DNA of 47,222 bases from Parafilimonas sp. (GTDB lineage: Bacteria > Bacteroidota > Bacteroidia > Chitinophagales > Chitinophagaceae), in NCBI GenBank assembly GCA_019247895.1, contig JAFBAF010000065.1, positions 1-47,222 on the forward strand, given 5' to 3'. The notes under the pieces are model-generated. The model was given only the letters and a program-made list of their open reading frames with translations, was not told where the DNA came from and made no database searches. Both the position numbers and the translations under genes were made by a program. Positions within the stretch are counted from its first letter, which is position 1, and each line of letters opens with the position of its first letter. Shown here in pieces: positions 603-41,964 of this stretch.

Positions 603-1493
603 TTGCCGCACCAGTTTTCAATATGTTTTTGCTTAAATAATTTGGGTGCTCTCGGGCTTGGAGCAAGTCTTACCTCTTTAAATAAATATTGCTCCGATAC
701 ATCCATTCTTAAAATATATTTTTTATGTTCATCAGTTGATAAAGGAATAAAACAATATATTCTTGATTTATTAAATGATCAGAATTATAACGGAGCGTTT
801 GAATTTATTGACTTTGATGCACAAAAAGAGTTCGGAAAATACAGGTCGCTGCAAAATGACTGGACCACTTACGGGCGTTTATTAATGCCGGATCTGATCA
901 AAGAAAACAAAGCTCTTTACCTTGATACAGATTTAATAATAGAAACAGATGTATTGGATATTTTAAAAACAGATATGCAGGATTTTGCAATTGCCGCTGT
1001 ACCAACAAGTGCCCTATTATATGCGCTTGAACATGCGTTTTTCTGTGACATTTTGCATTTAAATCCGACCCTGACAGTTTTTAATGCCGGGGTTTTATTA
1101 ATGAATATTGAATTATGGAAACAAAATAATATAAAACATAAACTGTTGGAGATTGGCAATACATATCCGAATGAATTATTATCGGCAGACCAGGCCTTAT
1201 TAAATGCTTTTTTTGCTGGCAATTTTTTTCAGCTTCCCGCAAAATATAACGTTCACTGGTATGCTGCAAGCATTCCTGCTGCTGTTGCTGATGACGCAAT
1301 TTTTCATTTTGTAGGCTCTCCGAAGCCATGGGATGTTTTCGGAAAATATTTGCACTCGGGCTATGCCAGATGGAAAGAATTTGATGTACTGCACTGGAGT
1401 CGTCATATTTTAAAAACTAATAAAAAAGCTCAGCTAAAAAGAACCTGGTCAATAAGAGGGTCTTACGTCAAAAGACTTTTAAAGAAAGCATAG
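603..1493 (+). CDS. glycosyltransferase family 8-like protein (TTG start)
   Basis: GT8-like architecture: N-terminal SICFCLNNLGALGLGASLTSL, DxD-type motif ALYLDTDLII, FNAGVLLMNIELWK, HFVGSPKPW near the C-terminus. Confidence 0.8.
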   Translation: MPHQFSICFCLNNLGALGLGASLTSLNKYCSDTSILKIYFLCSSVDKGIKQYILDLLNDQNYNGAFEFIDFDAQKEFGKYRSLQNDWTTYGRLLMPDLIKENKALYLDTDLIIETDVLDILKTDMQDFAIAAVPTSALLYALEHAFFCDILHLNPTLTVFNAGVLLMNIELWKQNNIKHKLLEIGNTYPNELLSADQALLNAFFAGNFFQLPAKYNVHWYAASIPAAVADDAIFHFVGSPKPWDVFGKYLHSGYARWKEFDVLHWSRHILKTNKKAQLKRTWSIRGSYVKRLLKKA

Positions 1494-1500
1494 AAATAAA

Positions 1501-2622
1501 ATGAAAATCCTTCACATAGTTCCTTCCTATAAGCCCGCTTACATATATGGCGGAACGATCGAATCGGTTGCGAGGCTCTGTGAAGGATTGGCAAATGCGG
1601 GTGAAGAGGTTAAAGTATTTACTACTACAGCAAATGGTAAAGAGGAACTGGATATTACACCTAATACTGAATATGACGTGGATGGTGTTAGTGTAGTATA
1701 TTTCAAAAGAATATTTAAAGACCCTGTTTATATTTCTCCTGCTCTTTGGAAACGGTTATATAAAGAATGTGACCGGTACGATGTGGTTCACATTCATTCC
1801 TGGTGGAACTTTTTAGTAATAGTTGCTGCCTTTATTTGTAAACGAAAAAAAGTAAAAACGATTATATCGCCACATGGTATGATGAGCGATTATATATTAC
1901 ACAACTCAAATACTTTTTTTAAATCGATTAGTCATTTAAGTATAGGTAAGCGCTTGTTAACCTACTCGGCTTTTCATGCTACTTCAGATGCCGAAGTTGA
2001 AGAGTGTGTTAAGTTAATACCCGGCTGGAAGGGTTTTATGATTCCAAACATTGTTTGGCTGCCCCAACTGGAAATAAAGAAACCCGCACTTCCTGAGTTT
2101 ACTATTATTTTTTTATCGCGGATTCATCCTAAAAAAGGAATTGAACTGCTGATGGAAGCTATAAGTGCCATGCATGTAAAACCGGTACTTAAAATAGCTG
2201 GCATAGGAGAAGATAAGTACATTGATAAATTAAAGCAAAAAGCAAAGGACTTAAATATAGCTAATAATGTAAAATGGGAAGGATGGCAGGACAGGGACCA
2301 AAAATTCAAAGCATTTATGAGTGCCGATTTATTTGCTTTAACCTCTTATAACGAAAATTTTGGAAATGTAGTTATTGAAGCTTTACATGCAGGAACGCCG
2401 GTTTTAATTTCTGATAAAACGGGCCTTTATTCGTTTATAAAAAAATATAATCTTGGCTGGATTTGTAAAACCACTGTTGAAGATATTAAACTGAAATTGC
2501 AGGAAGCAATTAGCAATACTGCGCAAAGAAAATGGATAAGTAGCTGTGCTTCCCTGGTAATAAATGATTTTTTTACAGAAGAAAAGTTGATCCCGGAATA
2601 TATTAAACATTATCAGCAATAG
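1501..2622 (+). CDS. glycosyltransferase family 4 (GT-B), of the type found near Bacteroidota exosortases
   Basis: MKILHIVPSYKPAYIYGGTIESVARLCEGLA at N-terminus; C-terminal FLSRIHPKKGIELLMEA and SYNENFGNVVIEALHAGTPVLIS (E-x7-E-like) typical of GT4. Confidence 0.85.
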   Translation: MKILHIVPSYKPAYIYGGTIESVARLCEGLANAGEEVKVFTTTANGKEELDITPNTEYDVDGVSVVYFKRIFKDPVYISPALWKRLYKECDRYDVVHIHSWWNFLVIVAAFICKRKKVKTIISPHGMMSDYILHNSNTFFKSISHLSIGKRLLTYSAFHATSDAEVEECVKLIPGWKGFMIPNIVWLPQLEIKKPALPEFTIIFLSRIHPKKGIELLMEAISAMHVKPVLKIAGIGEDKYIDKLKQKAKDLNIANNVKWEGWQDRDQKFKAFMSADLFALTSYNENFGNVVIEALHAGTPVLISDKTGLYSFIKKYNLGWICKTTVEDIKLKLQEAISNTAQRKWISSCASLVINDFFTEEKLIPEYIKHYQQ

Positions 2623-3196
2623 CTTTCTTTTTCTTATCATATCTCATTACAAAGATCGTCATCATCCCGAGAATTATAACATATGTAAGCGTATCAAAAC
2701 TTGTATGTGCGTTGAAGTTTTGAAAATAGCTCCATTTATAATAATTACTCAACGCAATCATATCAATTCTAAAAATATTTATTGCGAATATTATGGCTGC
2801 GCCGATAGTAATCCACTTTAGTTTATACTTCAGGCGTATACGATGCGCTATAATGAATCCTAACCATAAACTTATAGCACCAATTCCTAAACATCCCCAT
2901 GCAATAGTTACCCCTTTACTTCCTGCTATTGTGATGTTGGCATTACCTAACTGATGCACTGAATAGCCGGAAATCTTCAGCAAAAAAGCCGATGTTTTTG
3001 AAACGAAAATTGTAAGCCACCCGGGAAAATTCGCATAACTGCCAAAAAAAGAAAAGTATAATTTTCCACCCGGTGTTGTAAAACCAACATATAAATAGAA
3101 CCCATACTTTAGTACAAAATACAATACAAGGAAAATGATAATATTAAAATCGGGTTTGCTCTTTAAATTTAATCTTCCTCTATGCATAACCTTCAT
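2603..3196 (-). CDS. exosortase/archaeosortase family protein (small, ~197 aa)
   Basis: Polytopic membrane protein with the exosortase Cys/Arg/His pattern in order: WGCLGIGAISLWLGF ... AINIFRIDMIAL ... NAHTSFDTLTYVIIL. Confidence 0.8.
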   Translation of the reverse strand: MKVMHRGRLNLKSKPDFNIIIFLVLYFVLKYGFYLYVGFTTPGGKLYFSFFGSYANFPGWLTIFVSKTSAFLLKISGYSVHQLGNANITIAGSKGVTIAWGCLGIGAISLWLGFIIAHRIRLKYKLKWITIGAAIIFAINIFRIDMIALSNYYKWSYFQNFNAHTSFDTLTYVIILGMMTIFVMRYDKKKKAIADNV

Positions 3197-3477
3197 TAAA
3201 CTAATTTAACGAACTCACTAATTCCTAACCAGGCACTAAGGCGCCATAAAAGTTTATCTCGCAAACTAAATATAATTTTGTACGTATATAACTCAATATT
3301 TTCTTTAGATTTTCGTTAGAACAAAATATATCAGCTTAGCAGCTCAGTTTGATAGTTTTAAGGGCCTGATGATAAATTAAATGACAAAAAAAAATCTCAA
3401 TCCGGAAAAATCACTATGTTTATAACATCATTACCTAATCAAGGGATTGAATTTTTATCCGTAATCCAAAACTGACT

Positions 3478-4131
3478 ATGCAATTTCAGAATCTAAAAAA
3501 TTTCAGGCTGCCTTCAAATTTTCGCGGCCGTTCAGCCTGGTACGTGCAAACCTGGTGGCTCGTTCAAATGCTTTTTTTCAAAACATCACCACAATTTATG
3601 TATGGTTGGAGAAGGTTTTTGTTAAGATGTTTTGGCGCCGAAATAGGGAAAAAAGTAATGATAAGGCCATCCGCCCATATTCAATTTCCATGGAAGTTGC
3701 ACATAGGTGAGTACAGTTGGGTTGGCGATAGTGTTGTTTTGTATAATCTTGACCATATTTATATAGGAAGCCATTCAGTTGTTTCACAACGATCTTATTT
3801 GTGCACGGGAAGCCATCATCATCTTTCTGAAAACTTTTCCATTTATATAAAGCCGGTAACAATTGAAAATCAATGCTGGCTGGCTGCAGATGTATTTGTG
3901 GCGCCCGGCGTAACTATCGGAGAGGGTACAGTGGTTGGCTCCCGCTCTTCCGTATTCAAACCATTGCCTTCCGGTAAAATTTGTTTTGGAACACCTGCGG
4001 TTGTTATTAAAGACAGGATTAAAGGTGATGCGGATGAATTACAAATTATTTTTGCGCCTTCATTCGAGCCTAAGCCTATCGAACTTTGGTCAGATTATTC
4101 AGGATCAAAAGCTCTATTTAGCGATATTTGA
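3478..4131 (+). CDS. putative colanic acid biosynthesis acetyltransferase WcaF-like (left-handed beta-helix hexapeptide repeat)
   Basis: FRGRSAWYVQTWWLVQMLFFKTSPQ N-terminus, hexapeptide repeats (IGEYSWVGDSVVLYNLDHIYIGSHSVVSQRSYLCTGSHH ... VTIGEGTVVGSRSSV). Confidence 0.85.
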   Translation: MQFQNLKNFRLPSNFRGRSAWYVQTWWLVQMLFFKTSPQFMYGWRRFLLRCFGAEIGKKVMIRPSAHIQFPWKLHIGEYSWVGDSVVLYNLDHIYIGSHSVVSQRSYLCTGSHHHLSENFSIYIKPVTIENQCWLAADVFVAPGVTIGEGTVVGSRSSVFKPLPSGKICFGTPAVVIKDRIKGDADELQIIFAPSFEPKPIELWSDYSGSKALFSDI

Positions 4132-4155
4132 TAAAGACATAAACTTATAATTTTT

Positions 4156-4182
4156 AAAAGGCTCGCTTAGCGAGCCTTTTTT
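4156..4182 (+). terminator. Rho-independent terminator
   Basis: aaaaGGCTCGC-TTA-GCGAGCCtttttt: 7-bp perfect GC-rich stem, 3-nt loop, T6 tract, 25 nt after the WcaF-like stop. Confidence 0.9.
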
Positions 4183-4276
4183 ATAAAGAAAATCCTTTAC
4201 GGATAATAAAATAACAAACTTTTTACCTGCAAATTTCAGGTTTAACTACCTTGTGCCTTATTCCAATATCCAGGCT

Positions 4277-6580
4277 ATGAAAATAAAACTTCAGGTTTTT
4301 AACAGCTGTTCTAAGACCTTACAAAGCAAGATTTTTTACTACTGTTTTATATGCTTCTTAATGGTCAATTTCACCGTTGATGCACAGGTCAACAATACCG
4401 GGGCATTGTATATAGCGGGTAACGCCGGTATGTATACCGATTTTACAAATGCAGCATCATCTTCTTATCAAAATGATGGCAATTTGTATATAACCGGTGA
4501 TTTTATAAATAACCAGCCCTCAATGGCAGAAGGCACAGGCACCACGCAGTTCACCGGCACAAGTCTTCAAAAAATCAGGGGAGTTCAATCATCTGTGTTT
4601 CACCACGTATATCTGAATAATGTAAATGGCGTACAAATGCAAAGAAATACTACGATGGGTGGAACTATTTCTACCGTAGCAGGAAGTCTTTATTTTAACG
4701 GGTATGCATTAACGATGGGCGGAAAAATAAATACCGCATATACCAATACCAGCGCATTTAATGTAACATCTTCATCAGACTTGAATATTACCGGCCCGGC
4801 GGGAACGGGCAATCCATTGTATTTTGCTCCATCAGGCAATACTTTACACAATCTTACAATAACATCCGGTGCAACCGGTATGTTGGGCAATGCATTGAAT
4901 ATTACTGCCGGAAGCGCTTTTGGAACTGTTACAAGCGACGGAACTTTTAATGCAAATAATTTTCTTACTATAAAATCCGATGCGAATGGTACTGCAAGGA
5001 TTGCTCAATCTTCCGGTACTATTACAAATTTTGTAACTGTTGAGAGGTATATACCTCCGCGCAGAGCCTGGCGATTTATGAGTGTACCTGTTGTAAATGA
5101 TACTTTGCACATACGAACTGCCTGGCAGGAAGGTGTAAATAATCCCAGCTTAAGTGTACGTTATGATCCGCATCCGGGATATGGCACCCATATAACCGGC
5201 GATAATAATACTTCAAACGGGTTTGATTATAATACCACCTATAATGCTTCCCTTAAAGTATGGGTGCAGGCAACAAACAGTTGGAGTAGCTATGCTCCAT
5301 CAACATTATACACATTAATTAATGATTATAATGGTTATTGTCTTTTTGTGCGTGGAAGCCGAGCAGTAGACCTTTCGCAAGCTACTAACGCAATACCTGA
5401 TGCAACCATTCTGCGGGTTACCGGTAATATTAATAATGGTTCATGGGCAAAACCTTATGCGGGTGTTAAGCTAAACGATTTATTATTGGTAGGTAATCCT
5501 TATGCGTCTTCTATCGATATAGCATCAATGCTTAATGCATCTTCAGGAATATATAGTAATAAGTTTTGGGTTTGGGATCCTGCACTTTCGGGTAGTTATG
5601 GAGTTGGCGGCTATGTTGTATATAACAATGGAATTATGGCTCCGTTAACTCAAAATTATCCTGCACCTACTACAATTATCCAGGCAGAACAGGCATTTTT
5701 GGTACAGTCAAATAATGTAGGCGCTACTATCAACTTAAAACAAGCTGATAAAACCTCCAGCGAGACAGGTATTTTTGCACGAAACAGTGCGCCTGCACAT
5801 CCGGCTGTTTATGTAAATCTGGTCGTTCCATCAAATAATTCATTTGTAGTGGAAGATGGTGTTGCAACAGGGTTTGGAAATCGTTTTTCAGCCAACGTTG
5901 ATACTGATGATGCTATGAAACTTTGGAATTTCTATGAAAACATTGCTTTGATAAGAAATGGAACGCCGTTATCTATAGAAATGAGGCCTATGCCTGTTAT
6001 AACTGACACCTTATTTTATAAAATGTATTTAAGACAACAGCCTTATGCGCTACAGGTATTTGCGCAGGATGCTGAAAAAATTAAGACAAAAGCTTGGTTA
6101 GTTGATAAATATCTCCATACAGAAACTGCGTTGGATCTATACGATACTACGATATATAATTTTACACCGAATCCGGATACTAATAGTTATCGTAATCGCT
6201 TTATGATAGTATTCAGGATTAAATTAAATGGTGATCCCGTGCCTGTAAGTAAAAGTGTTGACCAGTTAAATCCCGACGAAACAGGAAGTGCAAATAGTAT
6301 TGCTTCCTCAACAGGTTATATAACAGTATATCCAAATCCTGTTACAGGTAAAAGCTTTATCCTTAACCTGAATGATTTACCTGCAGGTAATTATAATCTC
6401 AATTTTTATTCATTAAAAGGTGCGTTATTATTTACTAAACAGGTTGATCACAAAAAGACTAATAGTAACTATACAATTAATCTGCCTTCAAACATTTCAG
6501 CCGGCGCGTTTACCCTGCAACTTGTAAATAAAACCGGTACTATAACTAAATCAATCTCTTTAATAATAGCCAGGCAATAA
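4277..6580 (+). CDS. secreted surface protein with T9SS type A C-terminal sorting domain
   Basis: ORF opens at 4253, but ATG at 4277 gives a signal peptide (MKIKLQVFN...FYYCFICFLMVNFTVDAQ). C-terminus VYPNPVTGKSFILNLNDLPAGNYNLNFYSLKGALLFTKQV...GAFTLQLVNKTGTITKSISLII matches the T9SS type A pattern. Confidence 0.85.
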   Translation: MKIKLQVFNSCSKTLQSKIFYYCFICFLMVNFTVDAQVNNTGALYIAGNAGMYTDFTNAASSSYQNDGNLYITGDFINNQPSMAEGTGTTQFTGTSLQKIRGVQSSVFHHVYLNNVNGVQMQRNTTMGGTISTVAGSLYFNGYALTMGGKINTAYTNTSAFNVTSSSDLNITGPAGTGNPLYFAPSGNTLHNLTITSGATGMLGNALNITAGSAFGTVTSDGTFNANNFLTIKSDANGTARIAQSSGTITNFVTVERYIPPRRAWRFMSVPVVNDTLHIRTAWQEGVNNPSLSVRYDPHPGYGTHITGDNNTSNGFDYNTTYNASLKVWVQATNSWSSYAPSTLYTLINDYNGYCLFVRGSRAVDLSQATNAIPDATILRVTGNINNGSWAKPYAGVKLNDLLLVGNPYASSIDIASMLNASSGIYSNKFWVWDPALSGSYGVGGYVVYNNGIMAPLTQNYPAPTTIIQAEQAFLVQSNNVGATINLKQADKTSSETGIFARNSAPAHPAVYVNLVVPSNNSFVVEDGVATGFGNRFSANVDTDDAMKLWNFYENIALIRNGTPLSIEMRPMPVITDTLFYKMYLRQQPYALQVFAQDAEKIKTKAWLVDKYLHTETALDLYDTTIYNFTPNPDTNSYRNRFMIVFRIKLNGDPVPVSKSVDQLNPDETGSANSIASSTGYITVYPNPVTGKSFILNLNDLPAGNYNLNFYSLKGALLFTKQVDHKKTNSNYTINLPSNISAGAFTLQLVNKTGTITKSISLIIARQ

Positions 6581-6784
6581 ATAAGGTGTGGTTATTAACT
6601 ATACCTGCAACCTCCTGCTTATCGGTTTTCAACCGGCTGCTGATTTGATTTTTACGGCAATAATATTTATCTTTTGCCGTTCAACATATTTTAAATACTT
6701 AACGTATATTAATATATTATCAGGCTTTTGCAAAAGACATTTAAATTGCAAATAATATCAGCAATAAAAACCTGGACAATTGAT

Positions 6785-7060
6785 ATGATAAGAAAACCTA
6801 TAATGCAGATGGTAATTGCGGCGGTGTTGATTTTAGGACTAACTACTCATATAAAAGCTCAGGGAGGCGGCCCTCCTGATGGTGATCCGGGAGATGACCC
6901 GGATAAAGTACCATTAGATCCCGGGTCATGGGTTTTAGTTGCAGCAGGCACAGGTTACGGACTTAAAAAGTTGCGGGATGCGCGGCGGTTTAACCAGAAA
7001 AACGGGCCAAACGCAACCGCTCAATATATTAGTAAACAAGAAACTCATAACAATGAGTAA
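6785..7060 (+). CDS. small secreted protein with PID-CTERM-like (exosortase substrate-like) C-terminus
   Basis: Signal peptide MIRKPIMQMVIAAVLILGLTTHIKAQ, acidic Gly/Pro linker GGGPPDGDPGDDPDK, then tripartite tail PLDPGSWVLVAAGTGYGLKKLRDARR. ORF track starts at TTG 6728; ATG 6785 is preferred. Confidence 0.65.
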   Translation: MIRKPIMQMVIAAVLILGLTTHIKAQGGGPPDGDPGDDPDKVPLDPGSWVLVAAGTGYGLKKLRDARRFNQKNGPNATAQYISKQETHNNE

Positions 7061-7087: not shown

Positions 7088-7921
7088 TTGAAACATTTGA
7101 TTTTTTCGTTTTGTTGCGTTGTAATGACTATAAACGCCTGTTACTCACAAGCTGAATGGTTTGTTAGTGCAGGTATCGGACCTATTAATTATGTGGGTGA
7201 TTTGCGGGATAAAAGATTTACAACAACCGGTATGAAATTGAATGGTTCGGTTGATTTGACGTATTCCACGCCTTATATATCCGGAACATTTTCATTAACG
7301 GCGGGCAAAATCGGAGCTACAGATGCTCAAAATGGGCCTAAGTGGAAATATCGGAATTTAAGTTTTCAATCTATGCTTTATGAAGCGGCAGTTCGCGGAG
7401 AACTTAATTTTAAAGATATTACTCAGCCTGAAAACGCTTTTAATAATGAGAATCCTGATAAATTTACACCGTACATATTTGCAGGAGTTGCCCTTTTTCA
7501 CTATAATCCTTATACGTTTGACCAATCGGGTAAAAAAGTTTATCTTCAACCACTTGGCACAGAGGGGGAAACCACCCCATACTCCTTATGGCAATTTGCA
7601 ATACCTTTTGGCATTGGTGTAAAGTATGCGCTTAATAGTACAACGCTTATTAGTGCAGAGTTTAATGTAAGAAAAACATTTACAGATTACATAGATGATG
7701 TTAGCCACTTTCATTACCTTGATACAGTAGCATTAGCAGCATCACATGGCCAGGAAGCGGCCTCTCTGTCCTATAGAGCAGACGAAATTCCCAACAATCT
7801 TTATAATTTTTATGACGGGTACAGAGGAAATCCTCATAAAAAAGATGGATATTATTCTGTAATGGTAAAAATTTCATTTCAACTTTTTACCAGCAGCCCC
7901 AAGTTTTACTACGGTTATTAA
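7088..7921 (+). CDS. outer-membrane beta-barrel protein, DUF6089-like (TTG start)
   Basis: Signal peptide ending CYSQAEW; AEWFVSAGIGPINYVGDL; alternating beta strands; PYIFAGVALFHYNPY; PFGIGVKYALNSTTLISAEFNVRKTFTDYIDDVS. Confidence 0.7.
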   Translation: MKHLIFSFCCVVMTINACYSQAEWFVSAGIGPINYVGDLRDKRFTTTGMKLNGSVDLTYSTPYISGTFSLTAGKIGATDAQNGPKWKYRNLSFQSMLYEAAVRGELNFKDITQPENAFNNENPDKFTPYIFAGVALFHYNPYTFDQSGKKVYLQPLGTEGETTPYSLWQFAIPFGIGVKYALNSTTLISAEFNVRKTFTDYIDDVSHFHYLDTVALAASHGQEAASLSYRADEIPNNLYNFYDGYRGNPHKKDGYYSVMVKISFQLFTSSPKFYYGY

Positions 7922-8098: not shown

Positions 8099-9442
8099 AT
8101 GTATCGACAACTGACATTATATAAAATTGCTTTTTTAAATATTCTTTTAACGGCATTAGTGTTTGTATTGCCTGATCCTGTTTTCCAAACTCCCGTAAAA
8201 ATTGGAGTTTGCATTATGAACGTTGGTTTTCTTGCGCTTGCTTTACACAACCTGCCTGCTTTTTTAAAACGCAATGATAGCAGATTATTAATAGGAAGAA
8301 AAAGAACACTCATTGTATTAAGCTGTAGTGTTTACATTTTTATTATTGCTTTTTCATTCTATTTTCGTTCCGGTAACAGGCAATTATTTATTGTTTATCT
8401 ACTGTGGACGATTGCAATGTCTGTTTTATATCTGTTTGCAAATCCTATCTCAGTTTTTTTGCACAAAATTTTTAAAAAAAGGCGAAGGGTTGCTGTTGTA
8501 GGTTATGATGATACAGCTCATAAACTTGTAGAAAAACTTAAAAGAAAAAGTAACAGTCATTTTATAAATCACTTGGATAATGGTGGCTTTGTGGCCAATT
8601 CAACCGATATAAGAGTATTATCAGAGTACCTGGAATATGCTAAACAAAATAACATAAACGAGTTATATATTTCAATGCCCGATTATGAAGAAGATAATAT
8701 TAGTGTGCTTACAGAAGAAGCAGAAAAGCATTGCATCCGTGTAAATTTTATAGCTCCTCAAAAAGACCTTGCTTCCGGTTTTTACCATGTTTCTTATATT
8801 GGTGGCCTGCCCGTATTACAAAGGTTTCGTGAACCTTTGAAACGTTTGCATAAGCAAATTATAAAAAGAATTTTTGATTTGTTTGTGAGCTCAATGGTTA
8901 TCATTTTTATACTTTCATGGTTAATACCACTGGTAAGTATATTAATAAAGCTTGAAAGTAAAGGACCTGTTTTTTTTAAGCAATTGCGTACAGGAAGGGA
9001 AAATAATGCTTTTATGTGCTTAAAGTTCAGAAGCATGTATGCTAATAACGAATCTGACATTTTACAGGCTTCAAAAAACGATAAAAGAATTACAAAGGTG
9101 GGATCTTTTTTGCGAAAGACCAGCCTTGATGAGTTTCCCCAGTTCTTAAATGTATTTATGGGGGATATGAGTATTGTAGGACCAAGACCACACATGCTGC
9201 ATCATACTCAACAATATAGTGGTAAGGTAAATCACTATATGGTAAGATTATACCTGAAGCCGGGCTTAACAGGCTGGGCACAGGTAAATGGGTATAGAGG
9301 CGAAATAAAAAATATTGAGCTAATGAAGAACAGGGTGGAGCATGATATATGGTATATGGAAAACTGGAGCTTGCTGTTTGATATAAAAATTATGTTTTTA
9401 ACATTACGAAACATTTTAAAGGGAGAAGAAAATGCTTATTAA
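8099..9442 (+). CDS. exopolysaccharide biosynthesis polyprenyl glycosylphosphotransferase (undecaprenyl-phosphate sugar-1-P transferase)
   Basis: N-terminal TM helices plus CoA-binding-like domain, then the sugar transferase core KRIFDLFVSS...KLESKGPVFFKQLRTGRENNAFMCLKFRSM...RKTSLDEFPQFLNVFMGDMSIVGPRPH...KPGLTGWAQVNGYRGE. Confidence 0.95.
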   Translation: MYRQLTLYKIAFLNILLTALVFVLPDPVFQTPVKIGVCIMNVGFLALALHNLPAFLKRNDSRLLIGRKRTLIVLSCSVYIFIIAFSFYFRSGNRQLFIVYLLWTIAMSVLYLFANPISVFLHKIFKKRRRVAVVGYDDTAHKLVEKLKRKSNSHFINHLDNGGFVANSTDIRVLSEYLEYAKQNNINELYISMPDYEEDNISVLTEEAEKHCIRVNFIAPQKDLASGFYHVSYIGGLPVLQRFREPLKRLHKQIIKRIFDLFVSSMVIIFILSWLIPLVSILIKLESKGPVFFKQLRTGRENNAFMCLKFRSMYANNESDILQASKNDKRITKVGSFLRKTSLDEFPQFLNVFMGDMSIVGPRPHMLHHTQQYSGKVNHYMVRLYLKPGLTGWAQVNGYRGEIKNIELMKNRVEHDIWYMENWSLLFDIKIMFLTLRNILKGEENAY

Positions 9443-9553
9443 CAGCACAATGTCAATTACTCACTTATATATTTGCAGCTTAAAAATTACCAGTAGTCTT
9501 TCCAAAATCAGTGCTATTATAATCTGAAAAATTCACTACTTAAAAACCATTTG

Positions 9554-10375
9554 ATGAAGATCAATTTCCGTGCTTTCTTATTATTATTCATAATCCCAGG
9601 TTTCGTAACATGTTTCACATCCTGTAATACTTATAAAAATGTTGCCTATTTTCAGGATTTTGCGGATACTGCAAAGCCTGTTCTCGTCAAAACCGTTCCC
9701 TTTTCTTCACCCGTTATACAAACAGACGACATACTATCTGTTACCATACAAACCATAGATAATGATGTTACTAATATGCTTAATAGTAACAGCAGCTTAA
9801 ATAACTCAACTACTGCAATGCCTGTTGTGGGTAGCAGCAGTGCCAGTACGCCACAAGGCATAAACGGTTATTTGGTTGATAAAGATGGGAACATTGAAGT
9901 GCCCTTTGTAGGCAAAGTACATGTTGCAGGATTAACAACGGCTGAAGCAAAAAATCTGATCTCCGGTGAAGTAAATAAATACTTTAATGATGCAATCGTA
10001 AATGTGCGGTACGCAAATTTTAAAATCACTGTTATTGGTGAAGTTTTAAAGCCTTCAACATATGTTATACCTAATGAAAAGATAAACATTTTTGATGCAT
10101 TGGCTTTGGCAGGAGATATGACAATCTATGGACAGAGAGAAAATGTTCTTTTGGTTCGCGATACATTAAATGATAAAAGGCTCGTTAGGCTTAATCTTAA
10201 TAACAAAGATATAATTAGCTCTCCCTATTTCTATCTGCAATCAAATGATATTGTATATGTGCAGCCGAATAAGCAAAAAGTAGCTGCAACCGATGCTTAT
10301 CGTAATCGCCTGTTTGCACTTGTTGCTGCCGTGCTTACTGTGGTGATTGTATCAGTTAATAAACTTGGTAAATAA
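9554..10375 (+). CDS. Wza-like polysaccharide export outer-membrane lipoprotein
   Basis: Lipobox-like GFVTCFTSCNTYKNVAYFQD; poly_export/SLBB-like GYLVDKDGNIEVPFVGKVHVAGLTTAEAKNLISGEVNKYF...VTVIGEVLKPSTYVIPNEKINIFDALALAGDMTIYGQRENVLLVR. ORF track begins at TTG 9551; ATG at 9554. Confidence 0.9.
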   Translation: MKINFRAFLLLFIIPGFVTCFTSCNTYKNVAYFQDFADTAKPVLVKTVPFSSPVIQTDDILSVTIQTIDNDVTNMLNSNSSLNNSTTAMPVVGSSSASTPQGINGYLVDKDGNIEVPFVGKVHVAGLTTAEAKNLISGEVNKYFNDAIVNVRYANFKITVIGEVLKPSTYVIPNEKINIFDALALAGDMTIYGQRENVLLVRDTLNDKRLVRLNLNNKDIISSPYFYLQSNDIVYVQPNKQKVAATDAYRNRLFALVAAVLTVVIVSVNKLGK

Positions 10376-10396: not shown

Positions 10397-12808
10397 ATGG
10401 ATAATAGTAATAATACAAACGGAGTAAGACCTTTAAAAAAAGACGAAGAATTTGACATAAAAAAAATTCTGCATAAATTTTTAGTGCAGTGGAAATTTTA
10501 TGTGGCAAGTTTGATAGTTATTGCATTTCTGACATTCATGTTTATCAGGTATTCAACACCTTTATATAAAGTGCATGCGCAGGTTTTAATTGAAGATAAC
10601 AGCAGTAAAGGCGGTTCTTCATCGTCATCATCATCTTTCGCCCAAACAAATATGCTTCAAGATTTCAGCGGTCTGTTTGATCTTCAAAATAATGTTTATA
10701 ACGAAATGTCAATCCTGCAATCAATAGACTTGCTGGAAAAAACAATTAATAACCTGCATTTAAACATTGCATATTATAAGAAAGGTGATATCAGGGATAT
10801 AGAAATGTTTAATAAAAGCCCGTTCAGAGTTGATTTCACCCCAACTTCAGATTCAATACTTTTAACTGAATTTGAACTGAGTTTTCCAGACAGTGGTCGT
10901 TCAGCAAAATATTCAATAAAAACAGCAGACAATTCCTTTAAGGCTACTGCGAATTTTGATGATACAATTCAGTCGCCTGTTGGCAAAATTTGCCTTGTTC
11001 GTACCGGGTTCCCGTTTACTGATAATGTTTACAGCTTTACGGTAACTTCCGTTGCTGCAACTATTGCAGACATTCAAAAAAATATGGTTATTTCTATTCC
11101 TGATGATCAAACCACTGTTATCCAGGTAGATTATAATACTAATGTGCCAAGAAAGGGAGAATCTGTGGTGGGACAATTGATTAATGAATACCTGAAAAGA
11201 AACCTGACCGAAAAAAATGAAATATCAGACAGTACAATTGCATTCATTAATAGCCGGATAGGATTGGTTTCAGGTGATCTTTCAGGTATTGAAACCGATA
11301 TAGAGCATTTTAAACAACAAAATAATTTAGCCGATATCAATGCGCAGTCTCAACTGCTCGTTCAAAATAGCTCCGTTTACTATCAAAAATTGAATGAGGC
11401 GGAAGTGCAGCTGAATGTTGTTAAAACAATGCTTGATTACTTGGCTGATGAAAAAAATACAAACAGACCGGTTCCTGCCTTGCTGACGGCAGACCCAACT
11501 TTCCTTGCCTTAATGCAGCAATATAACTCACTTGTATTGCAACGCGAGAGGCTGGCGCTGACAGTAAAGGAAAATAATCCAATTGCTTCTAATATCAATA
11601 CCCAAATTAAAAATGTTAGAAGCGATTTGGTGAAGAGTTTGCAAAGCCAGCAAAAAGCCTTGCAGATAAGTGAGAACAAACTGGCAGAACAAAACAAACA
11701 GGCAGCGGGTGCCATACAAAATGTTCCTGTTCAAGAAAGACAATATGTTGATTTATCAAGAGAGAAAGATATTAAACAGGCTTTGTATTTATACTTGCTT
11801 CAGAAAAAAGAGGAAACCGCAATTACACGTGCCTCTAACCTGCCAAATGCAAGTATAATAGAGGTACCAAGATCAGAATATCTCCCTTACTTCCCAAACA
11901 AATTACTTATCTGCTCTGCAGCAATTTTGCTTGCATTTATTTTGCCAACAGGTTGGATTATTGTAAAGCAATTGCTTTCTAATAAGATTGTTAACAGGGA
12001 AGATATTACTAACCAAACAACAGTGCCTATAATAGCGGAAATTGGCCATTATGATAAAGAAGGCGTGCTCAACATGCAAGAGGGCACCCGCACACCGGTT
12101 GCAGAACAGTTTAGGGTTTTTCGTACCAATATGGATTTTATTGTAAAACAAAAAACCTGCCCTGTTATATTAATAACTTCAACGATTTCAGGTGAAGGAA
12201 AATCTTTTATCAGTTCGGGCTTAGCTGCAGTTTATGCATATAGCGGCAAAAAAATACTGTTGATGGAAATGGATCTTCGCAAACCGAAACTTTCATCAAT
12301 GTTAGGCGTTTCAAATGAAACAGGCTTTACTTCCTATATTATCGGTAACAGGCCTGCAATGGAATATATAAAACCACTTAAAGGATTACCAAACGTTTTT
12401 CTTTTAAGCTCAGGATTAATACCGCCAAATCCTCCGGAATTAATGATGACTGAAAGAATGGATGATTTCTTTACTGAAGTTAAGGATCAATTCGATACTA
12501 TTATTATGGATACTGCACCAATTGGTGCAGTTACCGATGCACAAATCCTCGCAAAGTATTCTGATGTGAATTTGTATGTAATGCGCCAGGAGTACAGTTT
12601 TAAAAATAGCGTGGAATTTTTAAATGAACTTTTGGAAGCAGACAGGATAAGCAAAATGTATCTTGTTGTGAATGACGTTAAAAAGAGTACGAGCTACAGA
12701 TACGGTTACGGATATGGTTATGGCTATGGTTATGGGTATGTGGATAATGGTAAAAAGGGATTATTTGCGAAGAAGTCTAAATCGAGAAAAAGACAACCAG
12801 TGCGGTAA
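10397..12808 (+). CDS. Wzc-like polysaccharide chain-length determinant / bacterial tyrosine autokinase fusion
   Basis: Wzz-type N-terminal domain with TM helix; long coiled-coil; kinase Walker A STISGEGKSFISSGLA, Walker A' ILLMEMDLRKPKL, Walker B FDTIIMDTAPIG; tyrosine-rich tail SYRYGYGYGYGYGYGYV. Confidence 0.95.
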   Translation: MDNSNNTNGVRPLKKDEEFDIKKILHKFLVQWKFYVASLIVIAFLTFMFIRYSTPLYKVHAQVLIEDNSSKGGSSSSSSSFAQTNMLQDFSGLFDLQNNVYNEMSILQSIDLLEKTINNLHLNIAYYKKGDIRDIEMFNKSPFRVDFTPTSDSILLTEFELSFPDSGRSAKYSIKTADNSFKATANFDDTIQSPVGKICLVRTGFPFTDNVYSFTVTSVAATIADIQKNMVISIPDDQTTVIQVDYNTNVPRKGESVVGQLINEYLKRNLTEKNEISDSTIAFINSRIGLVSGDLSGIETDIEHFKQQNNLADINAQSQLLVQNSSVYYQKLNEAEVQLNVVKTMLDYLADEKNTNRPVPALLTADPTFLALMQQYNSLVLQRERLALTVKENNPIASNINTQIKNVRSDLVKSLQSQQKALQISENKLAEQNKQAAGAIQNVPVQERQYVDLSREKDIKQALYLYLLQKKEETAITRASNLPNASIIEVPRSEYLPYFPNKLLICSAAILLAFILPTGWIIVKQLLSNKIVNREDITNQTTVPIIAEIGHYDKEGVLNMQEGTRTPVAEQFRVFRTNMDFIVKQKTCPVILITSTISGEGKSFISSGLAAVYAYSGKKILLMEMDLRKPKLSSMLGVSNETGFTSYIIGNRPAMEYIKPLKGLPNVFLLSSGLIPPNPPELMMTERMDDFFTEVKDQFDTIIMDTAPIGAVTDAQILAKYSDVNLYVMRQEYSFKNSVEFLNELLEADRISKMYLVVNDVKKSTSYRYGYGYGYGYGYGYVDNGKKGLFAKKSKSRKRQPVR

Positions 12809-12844: not shown

Positions 12845-14254
12845 ATGCCTAAGGGTTTAAAAAATTGTTTGAAAGCGGCTTTTTACATGCTTATGTCTTT
12901 TTTGCCATTAAGCTGGATTTCCATTACACACGTTTCAAGCAATGTGAAATATGATGACTCTAATTTTAAACTTTTCCATTTATCACTTGTGCCATTATTA
13001 ATGGCATGTTTATATAGTTCTTACAGACTTAAGGTTGCGGCATTTGTAAAAAAATACAGGCTTTTAATTGGCAGTTTTCTTCTATTAATGATTATGAATT
13101 TTATATCTACCGGTGTAAATGAAACCGTTTCGCCGCTGGCTGCCATGTATATAGTGAAAAACCTTATCTACTTTACTTTTTTTATTCTTTTTGCAGGAAT
13201 GTGCTTAATGCTGTTTGAATTAGATGAAAAAATCAAAATTATAAGTAGCGGCGCGTTTTTATCTGTTTGTGTATTTATAGTGGTTACAACCTTTACTTAT
13301 AAAGATGGAATCTATATAGTTGAGCTGGTTAAAAATTTTGCTACCGGAAATATAATGGGATTACGTTATGGATTGTTTAAAAACCTATACAATGGCGGAG
13401 CACTTGAAAGGGATTCTGATTTTGCAACTGCATTAATAAATACTATAACCGGCTCCTTCATTTTTGCCCATTTCCTTGCACTTTACGCATACTATAATTC
13501 ACCTTCGCGTTTTTATAAAATCTTAAATATTATTACACTTATATTTTCATTCTTCTTTGTTATTTCAAGTATAAGCAGGTCCAATATCATAGCAATTGTA
13601 TTTGGATATTTTTGTTATTGGGGCCTTGAAATAGTGTTCAATAAAAACATGAAAATTGTTTTTTCGTTGTTGGGCGGATTTATAGTATTAACCTTGATAA
13701 CTATTTTAATATTGTCAAGCAGCGGAGCGCAGCAGGCTCTTTCCGGTACTTCGGCTATGTACCAGCAAAGATTTGGTGATTTAGATGAGAATGTAAGATG
13801 GCAAATGAACAGCCAGGCATTACAAATCGTTTTTTCAAATCCTAAATCTCTGTTTTTCGGGTTAGGCTCAGGAGCCTTGTTATATAGCAATCAATATTCT
13901 TTTATATCTAATGATAAATCTATCCATAACTTTATAATAGGCTCCACTTACCAGGCGGGCATTTTTGGTTTGGTATTAAGTTGCATGTTTTATTTTACAC
14001 AGCTATTTTGTTTAATAAAATATGCACCCATCTTGTCAAGGTATAAAAAGGTTTTTGTTATTACCGGTGTAATGTCTGTACCGTTAATCCGGCAAATGGA
14101 ATCAGGAAATAGCGGTTCACTCACATTGCAGGAATGGTTTTGCCTGGCATTCTTTTTAGGGTTTGTTTTAAGTACGTTAAACATTTCATCTGAAAAGCGC
14201 TCTATCAGGTTAACCAGTAATGGTTTTGTTGCTAAAAGTTTGCTGCAAACTTAG
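12845..14254 (+). CDS. Wzy-like polysaccharide polymerase / O-antigen ligase family membrane protein
   Basis: Polytopic membrane protein; large central loop followed by RWQMNSQALQIVFSNPKSLFFGLGSGALLY...SIHNFIIGSTYQAGIFGLVLS, typical of the Wzy_C/O-antigen ligase fold; sits directly after the Wzc-like gene. Confidence 0.75.
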   Translation: MPKGLKNCLKAAFYMLMSFLPLSWISITHVSSNVKYDDSNFKLFHLSLVPLLMACLYSSYRLKVAAFVKKYRLLIGSFLLLMIMNFISTGVNETVSPLAAMYIVKNLIYFTFFILFAGMCLMLFELDEKIKIISSGAFLSVCVFIVVTTFTYKDGIYIVELVKNFATGNIMGLRYGLFKNLYNGGALERDSDFATALINTITGSFIFAHFLALYAYYNSPSRFYKILNIITLIFSFFFVISSISRSNIIAIVFGYFCYWGLEIVFNKNMKIVFSLLGGFIVLTLITILILSSSGAQQALSGTSAMYQQRFGDLDENVRWQMNSQALQIVFSNPKSLFFGLGSGALLYSNQYSFISNDKSIHNFIIGSTYQAGIFGLVLSCMFYFTQLFCLIKYAPILSRYKKVFVITGVMSVPLIRQMESGNSGSLTLQEWFCLAFFLGFVLSTLNISSEKRSIRLTSNGFVAKSLLQT

Positions 14255-18351: not shown

Positions 18352-18510
18352 CTGCATATTATTTATTTCACTTTGATGCTTACCTCATTTGTAACAGAAC
18401 GTTTGAATATGGCAGAAATTAGTTTTGATTTGCAACTTTATTACATAAAATGCAGGCTTTATATGTATTTGTTCCAAAAGTTTTAAATGCGTAATCCTGC
18501 TTAAATTTTC

Positions 18511-19398
18511 ATGGTGAAAAGTTTTATTAAAAATACACAAAGACGGTTTCAGAATAAGGTCCAGAAAGAAGGTTCAGTATGGTTAAAGCCTTACCTTTTT
18601 CTGCTTGCCTTTTTACGGCCTGTATATTTCAATAAAGAATTTTTGTTGTTAAACGGATTAAGGCGAGAACCGAAATCCGGGCAGCAAAGTTTTATTTTTT
18701 TTACAGTACATAAAAGCGCATCAACATTCATTAAAAATACCATCATAAAACTCATTGGGCCAAGCCATATTACCGCTGTAGAGTTAAGTGGTTATCTAAG
18801 CAGGAAAAGGCAGGAAAAATATTATAACAATCCCGCTTTTATGAAAAAAGTATTATATAAAACAGGATACTTTTTTGGTGCTTTTCGTGCTTTTTATCCT
18901 TTTCCGGATTTGGATAAGTTTAAAATACTCCTGGTTTTGAGGGACCCGAGAGATGTGTTAACCTCTTTTTACTTTTCAACATTATACAATCATCCTTTAA
19001 GTACAAAAACTGTTTACGAAGAACGCAAAAAATATGAAACATATACAATCGACGAGTATGTATTGGAAACAGCGCCGGCGATGCAAAAAAAATATGCGGC
19101 TTATTGTAAAAATCTTTTAAATAGAAGTAATGTTCTTTTTTTAAAGTATGAGGATATGATAAGTGATTTCAGCAACTGGTTGCATACATTAAATTCTTTT
19201 CTTGAACTAAAAGATAATGAAGAGCAATTGCAGGAAATAATTGCAGCAACAACATTTAAAGTTGATAAAGAAGATCCAAAATCTTTTATTCGCAATATAA
19301 AGTCAGGTGACCATTTGAATAAATTAAAAACCGAAACCATTAATAAGCTAAACGAACTATTTTTTAATGAACTAAAAATGTTAGGATATAAAATATAA
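18511..19398 (+). CDS. sulfotransferase domain protein
   Basis: 5'-PSB-like FIFFTVHKSASTFIKNTI; 3'-PB-like KILLVLRDPRDVLTSFYFS; VLFLKYEDMISDF. Confidence 0.85.
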   Translation: MVKSFIKNTQRRFQNKVQKEGSVWLKPYLFLLAFLRPVYFNKEFLLLNGLRREPKSGQQSFIFFTVHKSASTFIKNTIIKLIGPSHITAVELSGYLSRKRQEKYYNNPAFMKKVLYKTGYFFGAFRAFYPFPDLDKFKILLVLRDPRDVLTSFYFSTLYNHPLSTKTVYEERKKYETYTIDEYVLETAPAMQKKYAAYCKNLLNRSNVLFLKYEDMISDFSNWLHTLNSFLELKDNEEQLQEIIAATTFKVDKEDPKSFIRNIKSGDHLNKLKTETINKLNELFFNELKMLGYKI

Positions 19399-19411
19399 AT
19401 AAGAAGCTGCA

Positions 19412-20314
19412 ATGGAGCCGAAAATTGACTTAGTAATTGCTGGTGCCCAAAAAGCAGGCACTACATCTCTGAATAAATATCTTGCGCAACATCCGAATAT
19501 ATACACACACTTTACGCAGGAATTTGGCATGTTTGCCAGTAATGAAGATTTTGATAAAGGATTACAAAAAAACATCCGGGAAAATGTAGAAAAACAATTG
19601 TTAATACAACCTGGTAAAAACGTATTTATTGCAAAGAGAGTAGGTGTGATGTATAACAAAGAAATGATGCAAAAGATTTATCAATCTTATTCTGATTGCA
19701 AAATGGTAGTGATTTTAAGAAACCCTGTTGACAGAGCTTTTTCTGCATTCAACTATTGCAGAATGGCAGGCATGGAGCCTTATAAGAAATTTGAAGACGC
19801 ACTTTATATAAACGATCCGGCAAGGTTCACCAATCCGAATTTTAAAAGAAACTGCGATTATATTTATCGAAGCAATTATCTTGCCCCTCTTCAAAATATG
19901 CAACTTATTTTCCCTGCAGAAAATATTAAGGTGTATATATTTGAAGAAATCGTAAAAAACTTAAAAGCGCCTCTAAATGAAATGGTGGATTCTCTTAACT
20001 TACCGCCTTTCGAATTTGATACGAAGAAGAATTATAATGAAGGAAGTGCATCGAGGTTTGATACAGTTTCAAAATTAACAGCGCCGGGAAACTTTAATAT
20101 TTTAAAAAAAGTTTTTACTGTACAGCAACGGGTAAAAATGAAAGAGTATTTAAAAAAATTAAATTCAAAAAAGAATGCTTCTGCAAAAGAAACGTTATCT
20201 GAAAATACCCGTAAATATTTAGTTGGTATATTTCGTCAAGAAGTACAGGAACTTGAACAATTTTTAAAGCTTCCGGTTAAAAGATACTGGCCTGAATTTT
20301 TTACTACATCATGA
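19412..20314 (+). CDS. sulfotransferase
   Basis: Canonical IDLVIAGAQKAGTTSLNKYLAQHPNIY and KMVVILRNPVDRAFSAFNY. Confidence 0.95.
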   Translation: MEPKIDLVIAGAQKAGTTSLNKYLAQHPNIYTHFTQEFGMFASNEDFDKGLQKNIRENVEKQLLIQPGKNVFIAKRVGVMYNKEMMQKIYQSYSDCKMVVILRNPVDRAFSAFNYCRMAGMEPYKKFEDALYINDPARFTNPNFKRNCDYIYRSNYLAPLQNMQLIFPAENIKVYIFEEIVKNLKAPLNEMVDSLNLPPFEFDTKKNYNEGSASRFDTVSKLTAPGNFNILKKVFTVQQRVKMKEYLKKLNSKKNASAKETLSENTRKYLVGIFRQEVQELEQFLKLPVKRYWPEFFTTS

Positions 20315-22185: not shown

Positions 22186-22195
22186 GTATTGATGT

Positions 22196-22927
22196 ATGGT
22201 TATTTCTGACGAGCATAAGTATGTGTTTATAGAAATGATTCGCACCGGCTCAACTGCTATTAGTGCTGAACTATGTGAGTACTACGGCGGAAGAAAAATA
22301 TTGAATAAGCATTCATATTACCATGAATTTTTAAAAATTGCTAATAAAGAACAAAAAGAATATTTTGTTTTTGTAGGGTGCCGAAACCCGCTGGATATGG
22401 CTGTAAGCGGATACATAAAATACAAGAGCGATCACCTTGGCCGGTATTCTGATCCTAAGCAATGGAGGAGGAATGGAGGAACGATAACGGATAAAAATCT
22501 GAAGATTTATAATGACATCCAGAAAAATAATTTAAGTTTTAACCAGTACCTGAAAAAGTATTACAGGTTGCCGTACAGCAATACATCGGTTATAAATAAT
22601 GAAGACGCGGATTTTGTAATCCGGTTTGAAAATATACAGGAGGATTTTAAAAAAGTATTGGGTTTGCTTAATCTAAAACAAATACGTGACATACCTATTA
22701 AAAATAAAACCGCAGCAAAAGATAATTTTTTAAGTTATTATACAAAAGATATTCAGCCTTATGCATTATTTATTTTTGGGCCTATAATGAAAAAATTTGG
22801 ATACGGGTTTCCTGCAGATTGGCCAAAGCAAAAATTTGAGTTTATATCCAATACTATTTTTGAGTTATATACGATTGCCAAAAAAATTTACTGGCGAAGC
22901 ACAAAAAGTAATTCAATGCCAGATTAA
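22196..22927 (+). CDS. sulfotransferase family 2-like protein
   Basis: YVFIEMIRTGSTAISAELCEYYGG...KHSYYHEF; 3'-PB-like FVFVGCRNPLDMAVSGYIKYKSD; later DFVIRFENIQEDF. Confidence 0.8.
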   Translation: MVISDEHKYVFIEMIRTGSTAISAELCEYYGGRKILNKHSYYHEFLKIANKEQKEYFVFVGCRNPLDMAVSGYIKYKSDHLGRYSDPKQWRRNGGTITDKNLKIYNDIQKNNLSFNQYLKKYYRLPYSNTSVINNEDADFVIRFENIQEDFKKVLGLLNLKQIRDIPIKNKTAAKDNFLSYYTKDIQPYALFIFGPIMKKFGYGFPADWPKQKFEFISNTIFELYTIAKKIYWRSTKSNSMPD

Positions 22928-33706: not shown

Positions 33707-33875
33707 TAGCTGATAATTAATTACAAGTATTTTATAAATCAAGCAGCCTTTACAAAAATGATTATGTCTTGATAATGCAGATGTTAAAATTTTTTTTAAC
33801 AAATGTGTAATTATTACACTCCTGCAATATATATTTACATGTTTATTGTTTTTTAAATTAAAAACTGCTTGTATT

Positions 33876-36800: not shown

Positions 36801-36896
36801 GATAAAAGTAATAATGGTTATCCATCAAGATCAATTGAATATATTCCTTACCCCACACCAAGAATTATAACTTTTGGTCTTAATTTTTCATTATAA
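33876..36896 (+). CDS. SusC/RagA family TonB-linked outer-membrane protein
   Basis: Signal peptide ...FTYIVQAQ, CarboxypepD_reg-like VTGKITDEKGGAIVGASVVVKGGKSGTTTDAAGAFKLTV, DVVVIGYGTAQKKDVTGSV, plug YVVDGVPL...INPYDIAQIDVLKDASAAAIYGSRGANGVIAITTKK, C-terminal TPRIITFGLNFSL. ATG 33876 preferred. Confidence 0.97.
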   Translation: MTSNRLLKAFILCPILLLFTYIVQAQKTVTGKITDEKGGAIVGASVVVKGGKSGTTTDAAGAFKLTVPSSTTTLSVTFVGYESQDVDISSASDITVSLKPGNSSLTDVVVIGYGTAQKKDVTGSVVSLKAKDFNQGVVNAPDQLLQNKIPGVEVTNNNGMPGSATTIKIRGNNSIRAVNNPLYVVDGVPLDGRTARPSVNLGTGGFGTTPDDNPLLYINPYDIAQIDVLKDASAAAIYGSRGANGVIAITTKKSTIQGTRLSVGTQFGFNAGYMKRFEVLDAGQFRDALHKYSLDTLSNSLDHGSSVDALDAITQNTLSQTYSLALSGGNEDAHYRASFLGSGLQGFIKNSELDKYIGTFSGGYKFLDRRLSIDFSLIAGHITENTPLVSNTAGSQGNLISSALQWNPTTDFKDANGQYNFPTNGSGNPLALLEGYSDLANTNTYLGNISASYKILKNLQYKFLYAINHSTGSRATNIDGWLQGISPITGAGFGVTSTAVLTSQDFQHTLSYNANLTSNVKLDAVAGFEYWKTNYRNANFSALGFNFNLDQNSLVGVNYTDVLQNGKTQNLPGIFVEPTTEIQSVFGRVNLNFLDRFFITATLRADGSSKFGANNKYGYFPSVGGKWLITNEDFMKNSTVFSSLALRASWGITGNQEFPAGASQEQFSFSAYNTAGQVNVANPNLKWEKTNSYNFGLDYSILNNRVFGSLDYYNKNTSDILFQSTAIQPAPASVYYINLPANLINKGFEFSVGATIVNKKEFSWDLGFNIATNDNKLTNFYAPGTNTPLQILTGQINGQGVSGTLSQIITNGQPVNEFYLKPFGGFDKNGNQVGLDSMPLTSETPIFAGDPNPHTIYGFSTTLRFNKLSLVVNAGGAGGYVIYNNTATDVTNISGIVGGRNIDQAAYNSAERPSSSVGASTRFLESGNYFKLRNATLRYDVGNVGNYIHELNFFVSGTNLFVITKFTGFDPEVNIDKSNNGYPSRSIEYIPYPTPRIITFGLNFSL

Positions 36897-36911
36897 TAAC
36901 AAACTAGTCAT

Positions 36912-38555: not shown

Positions 38556-38573
38556 ATCTAATTTGTTAAGCTT

Positions 38574-38607
38574 AAAAAAAGGTCATTTAAATGCATGACC
38601 TTTTTTT
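38574..38607 (+). terminator. Rho-independent terminator after susD
   Basis: aaaaaaaGGTCAT-ttaaatgc-ATGACCttttttt; stem extended by A/T tracts on both sides. Confidence 0.8.
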
Positions 38608-38626
38608 ATTTTGTGACCATTAAGAT

Positions 38627-41932: not shown

Positions 41933-41964
41933 ATAATAAAGCTCATTCGCAATTGCTATAACTT

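Follow-up and report, generated by a model that had tools for sequence, protein, structure and literature searches.

The systems closest to the locus described here come from exosortase and from type IX secretion (T9SS) work, two forms of surface export that have so far been treated separately. The PEP-CTERM/EpsH system (exosortase XrtA; PMC1569441) combines a tripartite C-terminal signal with an integral membrane Cys/Arg/His enzyme, and is frequently accompanied by EPS genes; the first of the processing steps considered below follow those proposed there for exosortases and summarised in PMC7468200. NCBIfam already names XrtX, XrtY, PID_CTERM and an XrtY-associated glycosyltransferase (NF046083, NF046081, NF046080, NF046085 for XYAG1, and NF046082), so that the pairing of an exosortase with PID-CTERM proteins is not in itself new. 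Among exosortases of Bacteroidota, xrtF of F. johnsoniae emerged together with T9SS genes from one surface-colonization screen, and XrtF has no known substrates (PMC10936215). PMC7468200 and PMC10994853 describe the attachment of T9SS cargo to A-LPS as a PorU-dependent event at the outer membrane that takes place without an exosortase.

The stretch of DNA analysed here (the window, 47 222 nucleotides) is a complete contig of a Parafilimonas sp. (Chitinophagaceae) genome (3.76 Mb, 366 contigs, 94% complete), and its features are collected in table 1. With respect to the NCBIfam description of XrtY/PID_CTERM systems, the window meets the PID_CTERM and XYAG1 cut-offs and differs in an exosortase that scores about half of the XrtY cut-off, in a PLDPG[ST]W rather than PIDGG[LI]S motif, and in the long polar tail of the substrate; the T9SS cargo link, undescribed in the literature searched, is added here. 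With respect to PEP-CTERM/EpsH, both the enzyme subfamily and the motif are different, with a single miniature substrate that usually lies beside a T9SS cargo gene. The start codon of the PID-CTERM gene was chosen by comparison with congeneric homologues, and the cargo reading frame stays open upstream of its assigned start, back to a GTG at 4253. The genes for the exosortase and XYAG1 are convergent and overlap by 20 nt at the 3' end of the former. Further along, at 33762-45303, inspection by eye suggested a SusC/SusD-like pair and, behind it, two large proteins with repeats of 'GGGVATGDLNNDG'-type sequence.

Table 1. Position of the features of the locus in the window, with the evidence for each assignment.
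Feature	Coordinates	Strand	Evidence
GT8 glycosyltransferase, left end of window	603-1493		
XYAG1 glycosyltransferase (XrtY-associated)	1501..2622	+	NF046085 435.9 bits, cut-off 400
Exosortase, XrtY clade, 197 aa	2603..3196	-	TIGR04178 and PF09721 above cut-off; alignment; tree
WcaF-family acetyltransferase	3478..4131	+	NF007797 270.5 bits, cut-off 192
Surface adhesin-like cargo protein, T9SS type A, 767 aa	4277..6580	+	PF18962 30.9, TIGR04183 24.5
T9DOM, approx. 130-aa pre-CTD domain of cargo protein	5834..6226	+	own profile
Type A T9SS sorting domain of cargo	6326..6556	+	hmmscan, residues 692-768 from GTG 4253
PID-CTERM mini-protein precursor, 91 aa, ATG 6785	6785..7060	+	NF046080 28.8 bits, cut-off 26
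Predicted Sec signal peptide MIRKPIMQMVIAAVLILGLTTHIKA	6785..6859	+	sequence; simple cleavage rule
Mature segment (predicted), 17 aa, QGGGPPDGDPGDDPDKV, ahead of sorting motif	6860..6910	+	cleavage rule
Sorting signal: PLDPG, hydrophobic stretch, KKLRDARR	6911..6988	+	NF046080 profile
Polar C-terminal extension, 23 aa, past basic cluster	6989..7057	+	sequence
PorG-like/DUF6089 protein	7088..7921	+	PF19573 46.9 vs 23.2; NF052316 108.8 vs 130
WcaJ-type initiating sugar-phosphate transferase	8099..9442	+	TIGR03025 380 bits, cut-off 295.55
Wza-type polysaccharide export protein	9551..10375	+	PF02563 56.4 bits
Wzc-type chain-length regulator/tyrosine kinase	10397..12808	+	reading of the translation
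Wzy/O-antigen-ligase-like polymerase	12845..14254	+	PF04932 26.9, below cut-off 31.7
Sulfotransferase-domain genes, three, in EPS locus	18505-19395, 19403-20311, 22193-22924		

That the window encodes an exosortase-family protein with the Cys, Arg and His residues named in the initial annotation was confirmed by TIGR04178 (score 44, cut-off 23) and PF09721 (32.4, cut-off 25.7), and by the invariance of Cys102, Arg143 and His164 in an alignment of 22 sequences. The curated models of the named types are all missed, XrtY (NF046083) with 84.5 bits for a cut-off of 160, XrtX with 74.9 for 170 and XrtF with 36.2 for 90. A tree of 90 exosortases separates two groups with support values of 100/99, and places the protein inside a 39-row clade that also holds the sole above-cut-off XrtY of the 200 Chitinophagaceae genomes surveyed (L070/G180); the class-level exosortases that pass the XrtX cut-off fall on the opposite side of the tree. 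The XrtY cut-off is thus reached in 1 of 200 genomes of the family, nearly all of whose XrtY-clade proteins miss it. Because the tree placement is that of XrtY and the 160-bit cut-off is missed, the label 'XrtY clade' is used rather than NCBI XrtY and, with respect to the families named by NCBI, the window (Parafilimonas) is a divergent member. XrtX, XrtF and other named types were also considered, and are ruled out by the tree and the scores taken together. Relatives were found in Parafilimonas terrae DSM 28286, in a Parafilimonas metagenome-assembled genome (MAG) and in two further Bacteroidota MAGs; a contig search with the genus alignment led to four loci, and one with the single protein as the query to no match. 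Exosortases usually carry a D-H-H sequence preceding T-x-F, which is [ND]-A-H in Parafilimonas. The AlphaFold model of the enzyme (mean pLDDT 61, from 5 sequences) is too poor for use, and its profile, when searched against the sequences of solved structures, gave chance-level matches only (best E, 0.05).

The 91-residue protein matches the PID_CTERM model with an E value of 7.6e-7 and is the only protein of the genome to do so above threshold, the runner-up being at E 1.5; its score is nevertheless lower than that of most relatives. The N-terminus is clearly hydrophobic, and a simple rule finds a plausible site for signal peptidase there; in the tail, motif, hydrophobic stretch and basic cluster can all be recognised. 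The length and the PID-CTERM type previously given for it were correct; the protein does not end at the tripartite tail, as had been thought, since 23 polar residues (FNQKNGPNATAQYISKQETHNNE) follow after ...RDARR. As measured from the first basic residue, the tail comprises 31 residues versus a median of 13, and long C-terminal tails are also present in two of the three sister Parafilimonas genomes. The PLDPG[ST]W sequence is common to the window and two Parafilimonas relatives, the third having PIDSN; among 105 distinct PID-CTERM proteins the +3 and +4 positions of the motif are nearly always GG. A chance match of the tail is ruled out by its being unique in the genome, by the score above cut-off and by the presence of the motif in two sister genomes.

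PID-CTERM precursors are miniature proteins with a median length of 72 residues. Between the predicted site of signal peptidase cleavage and the motif lies a Pro-, Gly- and Asp-rich segment with a median length of 17 residues (IQR 12-22; 17 in the window), values that are approximate because cleavage was placed by a simple rule of our own. These dimensions suggest that PID-CTERM products may be peptides rather than surface proteins. Outside Chitinophagaceae (loci L177-L203) a conserved CWPPPC is common at the end of the segment, right before PIDGG, and is possibly a disulfide or metal site. A separate observation, limited to Parafilimonas, is that the change from D-H-H to [ND]-A-H in the exosortase accompanies that from PIDGG to PLDPG or PIDSN in the substrate; it may possibly reflect co-variation of specificity, with the caveat that a single evolutionary event is involved.

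The distribution of the two families is also consistent with a relation of enzyme to substrate. Among 200 Chitinophagaceae genomes, 60 contain both PID-CTERM and an XrtX/Y-like exosortase, 9 only the former, 5 only the latter and 126 neither; the corresponding figures for 247 Bacteroidia genomes are 105, 2, 47 and 93. Thus, the co-occurrence of the two families anticipated in the initial annotation is found in 60/69 and 105/107 PID genomes, respectively. Of the nine PID-only Chitinophagaceae, three depend on matches that are weak (E above 1e-3) and several of the remainder are incomplete genomes, the two PID-only Bacteroidia are fragmentary (80-85% complete), and the 16 Chitinophagaceae genomes with solely other exosortase types have no PID-CTERM protein. 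The further expectation, that neither family should be found alone, holds for PID-CTERM, which almost never lacks the enzyme, and fails in the opposite direction, an exosortase without PID being present in 47 of 152 Bacteroidia exosortase genomes, some of which are probably counted for exosortases that act on other kinds of substrate. The genomes are related, and not independent, so that P values, among them the Fisher values for co-occurrence, overstate the association, although the pattern still recurs across many genera. Each of the four Parafilimonas genomes surveyed has a single PID gene and a single XrtY-clade exosortase, and a genome-wide count for the organism of the window gave one protein with the tail and one exosortase, both of them above the curated superfamily and PID_CTERM cut-offs. 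The 91-residue protein is, by sequence criteria, the only recognizable substrate of the exosortase in this genome, and we regard it as very probable that it is indeed the substrate of this XrtY-clade enzyme.

Gene neighbourhood led to a different partner from that originally envisaged. The two genes had been described as lying within 3.6 kb of each other, with a single adjacent substrate. The distance is correct and the substrate is single; adjacency is not supported, for the genes are on opposite strands with the WcaF-like and T9SS cargo genes between them, and in three sister Parafilimonas genomes they are on different contigs. What keeps the same arrangement in all four Parafilimonas genomes is the trio formed by the T9SS cargo, PID-CTERM and PorG-like genes (the last named 'PorG-like' only, because the DUF6089 cut-off is met and that of NF052316 missed). 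Since in the sister genomes the PID gene stays with this trio and away from the exosortase, the genes upstream of PID genes were surveyed, at loci chosen by PID score and not by gene context. With a CTD model that was itself trained on cargo proteins from PID loci, a T9SS-CTD gene was found immediately before the PID gene, in the same orientation, in 20 of the 25 family loci that extend far enough and in 16 of 30 class-level loci, to be compared with a background rate of 29/917 genes (3.2%). A same-strand T9SS gene was never found downstream, where an exosortase is present in 17 cases. Nine class-level upstream proteins were compared with Pfam: the T9SS tail is above cut-off in four, weak in four and without a match in one. 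The order and strand of the cargo and PID genes are fixed across approximately ten families besides Chitinophagaceae, in which PKD- and SprB-repeat proteins are among the upstream proteins. Two loci (L084 and L091) were seen to contain tandem repeats of the cargo/PID-CTERM pair adjoining an exosortase. Cargo stop and PID start are separated by a median of 41.5 nt, with two pairs overlapping by 4 nt; the gap in the window, 204 nt, is longer than usual and includes an unusually stable RNA fold (6581-6700, z -3.28), possibly a terminator, an attenuator or a processing site. Scans for sigma-70-type promoters and terminators between 2500 and 8200 returned matches at chance level only.

The cargo protein of the window carries a C-terminal tail above the cut-offs of both PF18962 (Por_Secre_tail, 27) and TIGR04183 (23). 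An alignment of PID-linked cargo proteins revealed a common, unnamed domain of approximately 130 residues on the N-terminal side of the sorting domain (here T9DOM), with no Pfam match in the window protein. At E about 1e-6, the T9DOM profile picks up RemZ and RemA of F. johnsoniae. With respect to the T9SS cargo of PMC7468200 and PMC10994853, RemA/RemZ adhesins included, the likeness lies in the type A sorting domain and in the pre-CTD domain, which is related to RemA/RemZ. T9DOM is present in 74 of 200 Chitinophagaceae genomes, of which 60 have the exosortase and 61 have PID; for Bacteroidia the figure is 62 of 247 genomes, 59 of them with the exosortase. The profile was derived from neighbours of PID genes, and this may bias the counts towards PID genomes, although the search covered entire genomes. 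Eight Chitinophagaceae genomes have T9DOM and neither exosortase nor PID; exosortase and PID without T9DOM are found in some others (e.g. G036, G043, G131, G135 and G196). PID and T9DOM copy numbers correlate moderately (rho 0.41, 61 genomes) and the pairing is not one to one, given that the genome of the window has eight T9DOM matches and one PID gene. An AlphaFold model of T9DOM with the sorting domain (mean pLDDT 47, from 2 sequences) was too poor for use.

From these data a mechanism can be proposed. The PID-CTERM precursor would be exported by Sec, and its short hydrophobic tail would keep it in the inner membrane; the Cys/Arg/His exosortase would then cut it at the P-[IL]-D-x-G motif and the new C-terminus would be passed to an acceptor. 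The released product would be a Pro/Gly/Asp-rich peptide of approximately 17 residues rather than a folded surface protein, and it may serve as the dedicated partner or anchor of the large T9SS-exported adhesin encoded directly upstream. If so, the exosortase and T9SS would act on one surface complex. That the exosortase processes a mini-peptide which partners or anchors a T9SS adhesin is the reading that we favour and hold to be reasonably probable; a functional coupling of PID-CTERM/exosortase to T9SS cargo, as deduced from gene order and distribution, appears slightly favoured on balance. The eight T9DOM matches for one PID gene are left unexplained by this mechanism. SprB is a T9SS adhesin encoded beside a dedicated partner, SprF, which sits in the outer membrane and serves type B cargo. 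The likeness lies in the combination of adhesin and partner; here, the partner would be an exosortase-substrate peptide encoded beside a type A cargo. Neither a mini-peptide partner for T9SS cargo nor the cargo/PID-CTERM gene pairing is described in what was searched of the literature on exosortases and type IX secretion. Curators had the enzyme-substrate pairing on record through the NCBIfam names, but PID-CTERM and exosortase XrtX go unmentioned in the literature searched, which excludes most subscription papers. What is provisionally new here is the miniature nature of PID-CTERM precursors and the T9SS cargo gene directly upstream.

Co-regulation alone would offer another account of the gene pairs: the mini-protein would be an independent product of the exosortase, needed in the same growth state as the adhesins, with no partnership between them. 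The operon-like gap is compatible with it, as are the only moderate copy-number correlation and the few genomes with PID and without T9DOM. However, a gene order and strand preserved in so many families, as well as pairs repeated in tandem within single loci, exceed what co-regulation needs, and we consider it rather unlikely.

The same neighbourhood data bear on the initial proposal that the small protein, once processed, becomes linked to the EPS of the locus or couples it, its T9SS neighbour being incidental. The EPS setting originally stated is confirmed: genes for WcaJ, Wza, Wzc, a Wzy-like protein and glycosyltransferases surround both genes, and the three sulfotransferase-domain genes indicate that the polysaccharide is probably sulfated. 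XYAG1 is the convergent neighbour of the exosortase in two congeneric genomes as well, XYAG1 or WcaF adjoining the enzyme in two sister genomes, and, elsewhere, EPS genes accompany exosortase systems (PMC1569441). However, among 37 XrtY-clade loci of at least 8 kb, only a minority have EPS markers nearby (Wza 6, Wzc 5, WcaF 5, XYAG1-like 6 and WcaJ 1), a strong XYAG1 match is present in just 14/200 Chitinophagaceae genomes, and XYAG1 is also found in genomes of the family without a detected XrtX/Y exosortase (e.g. G007, G061, G107 and G109). The scarcity of EPS genes at XrtY-clade loci and the occurrence of XYAG1 without exosortase make the EPS linkage local rather than defining; as a defining context it is ruled out by the marker counts. 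Furthermore, the PID gene keeps to T9SS genes in the three sister genomes, where the exosortase is on another contig, and a 17-residue product would be too small for a folded polysaccharide-binding domain. Anchoring to the EPS of the locus is therefore not upheld, the constant neighbour of PID genes being a T9SS cargo gene, and we judge it improbable. That the small protein stays unprocessed in the inner membrane or is secreted, its tail merely resembling a sorting signal weakened by PLDPG and the long extension, is very improbable, for the low score, non-canonical motif and long tail that would speak for it in Parafilimonas are outweighed by a curated cut-off that is passed, by the one-to-one presence of PID gene and XrtY-clade exosortase in 4/4 Parafilimonas genomes, by the genus-specific exosortase His-motif change that accompanies the PLDPG variant and by the presence-absence coupling of the two families.

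Returning to the favoured reading, in which the mini-peptide is the partner or anchor of the adhesin, a broader version can be put forward as a tentative suggestion: XrtX/XrtY-PID-CTERM systems across Bacteroidia might be an arm of type IX secretion, in which the last gene of an adhesin operon encodes a miniature exosortase substrate and the peptide processed from it, on a lipid or glycan acceptor, would anchor or assemble the adhesin on the surface, providing a second attachment route beside PorU and A-LPS. In the literature searched, XrtF of F. johnsoniae is the one Bacteroidota exosortase with a published phenotype; as to the role of these enzymes, the conserved order of T9SS cargo, PID-CTERM and exosortase genes gives a concrete candidate substrate and a concrete partner, with Parafilimonas terrae DSM 28286 as a named strain. 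If PID-CTERM products are peptides, this would change what to look for and, if the proposal is true, it would join two surface-export systems.
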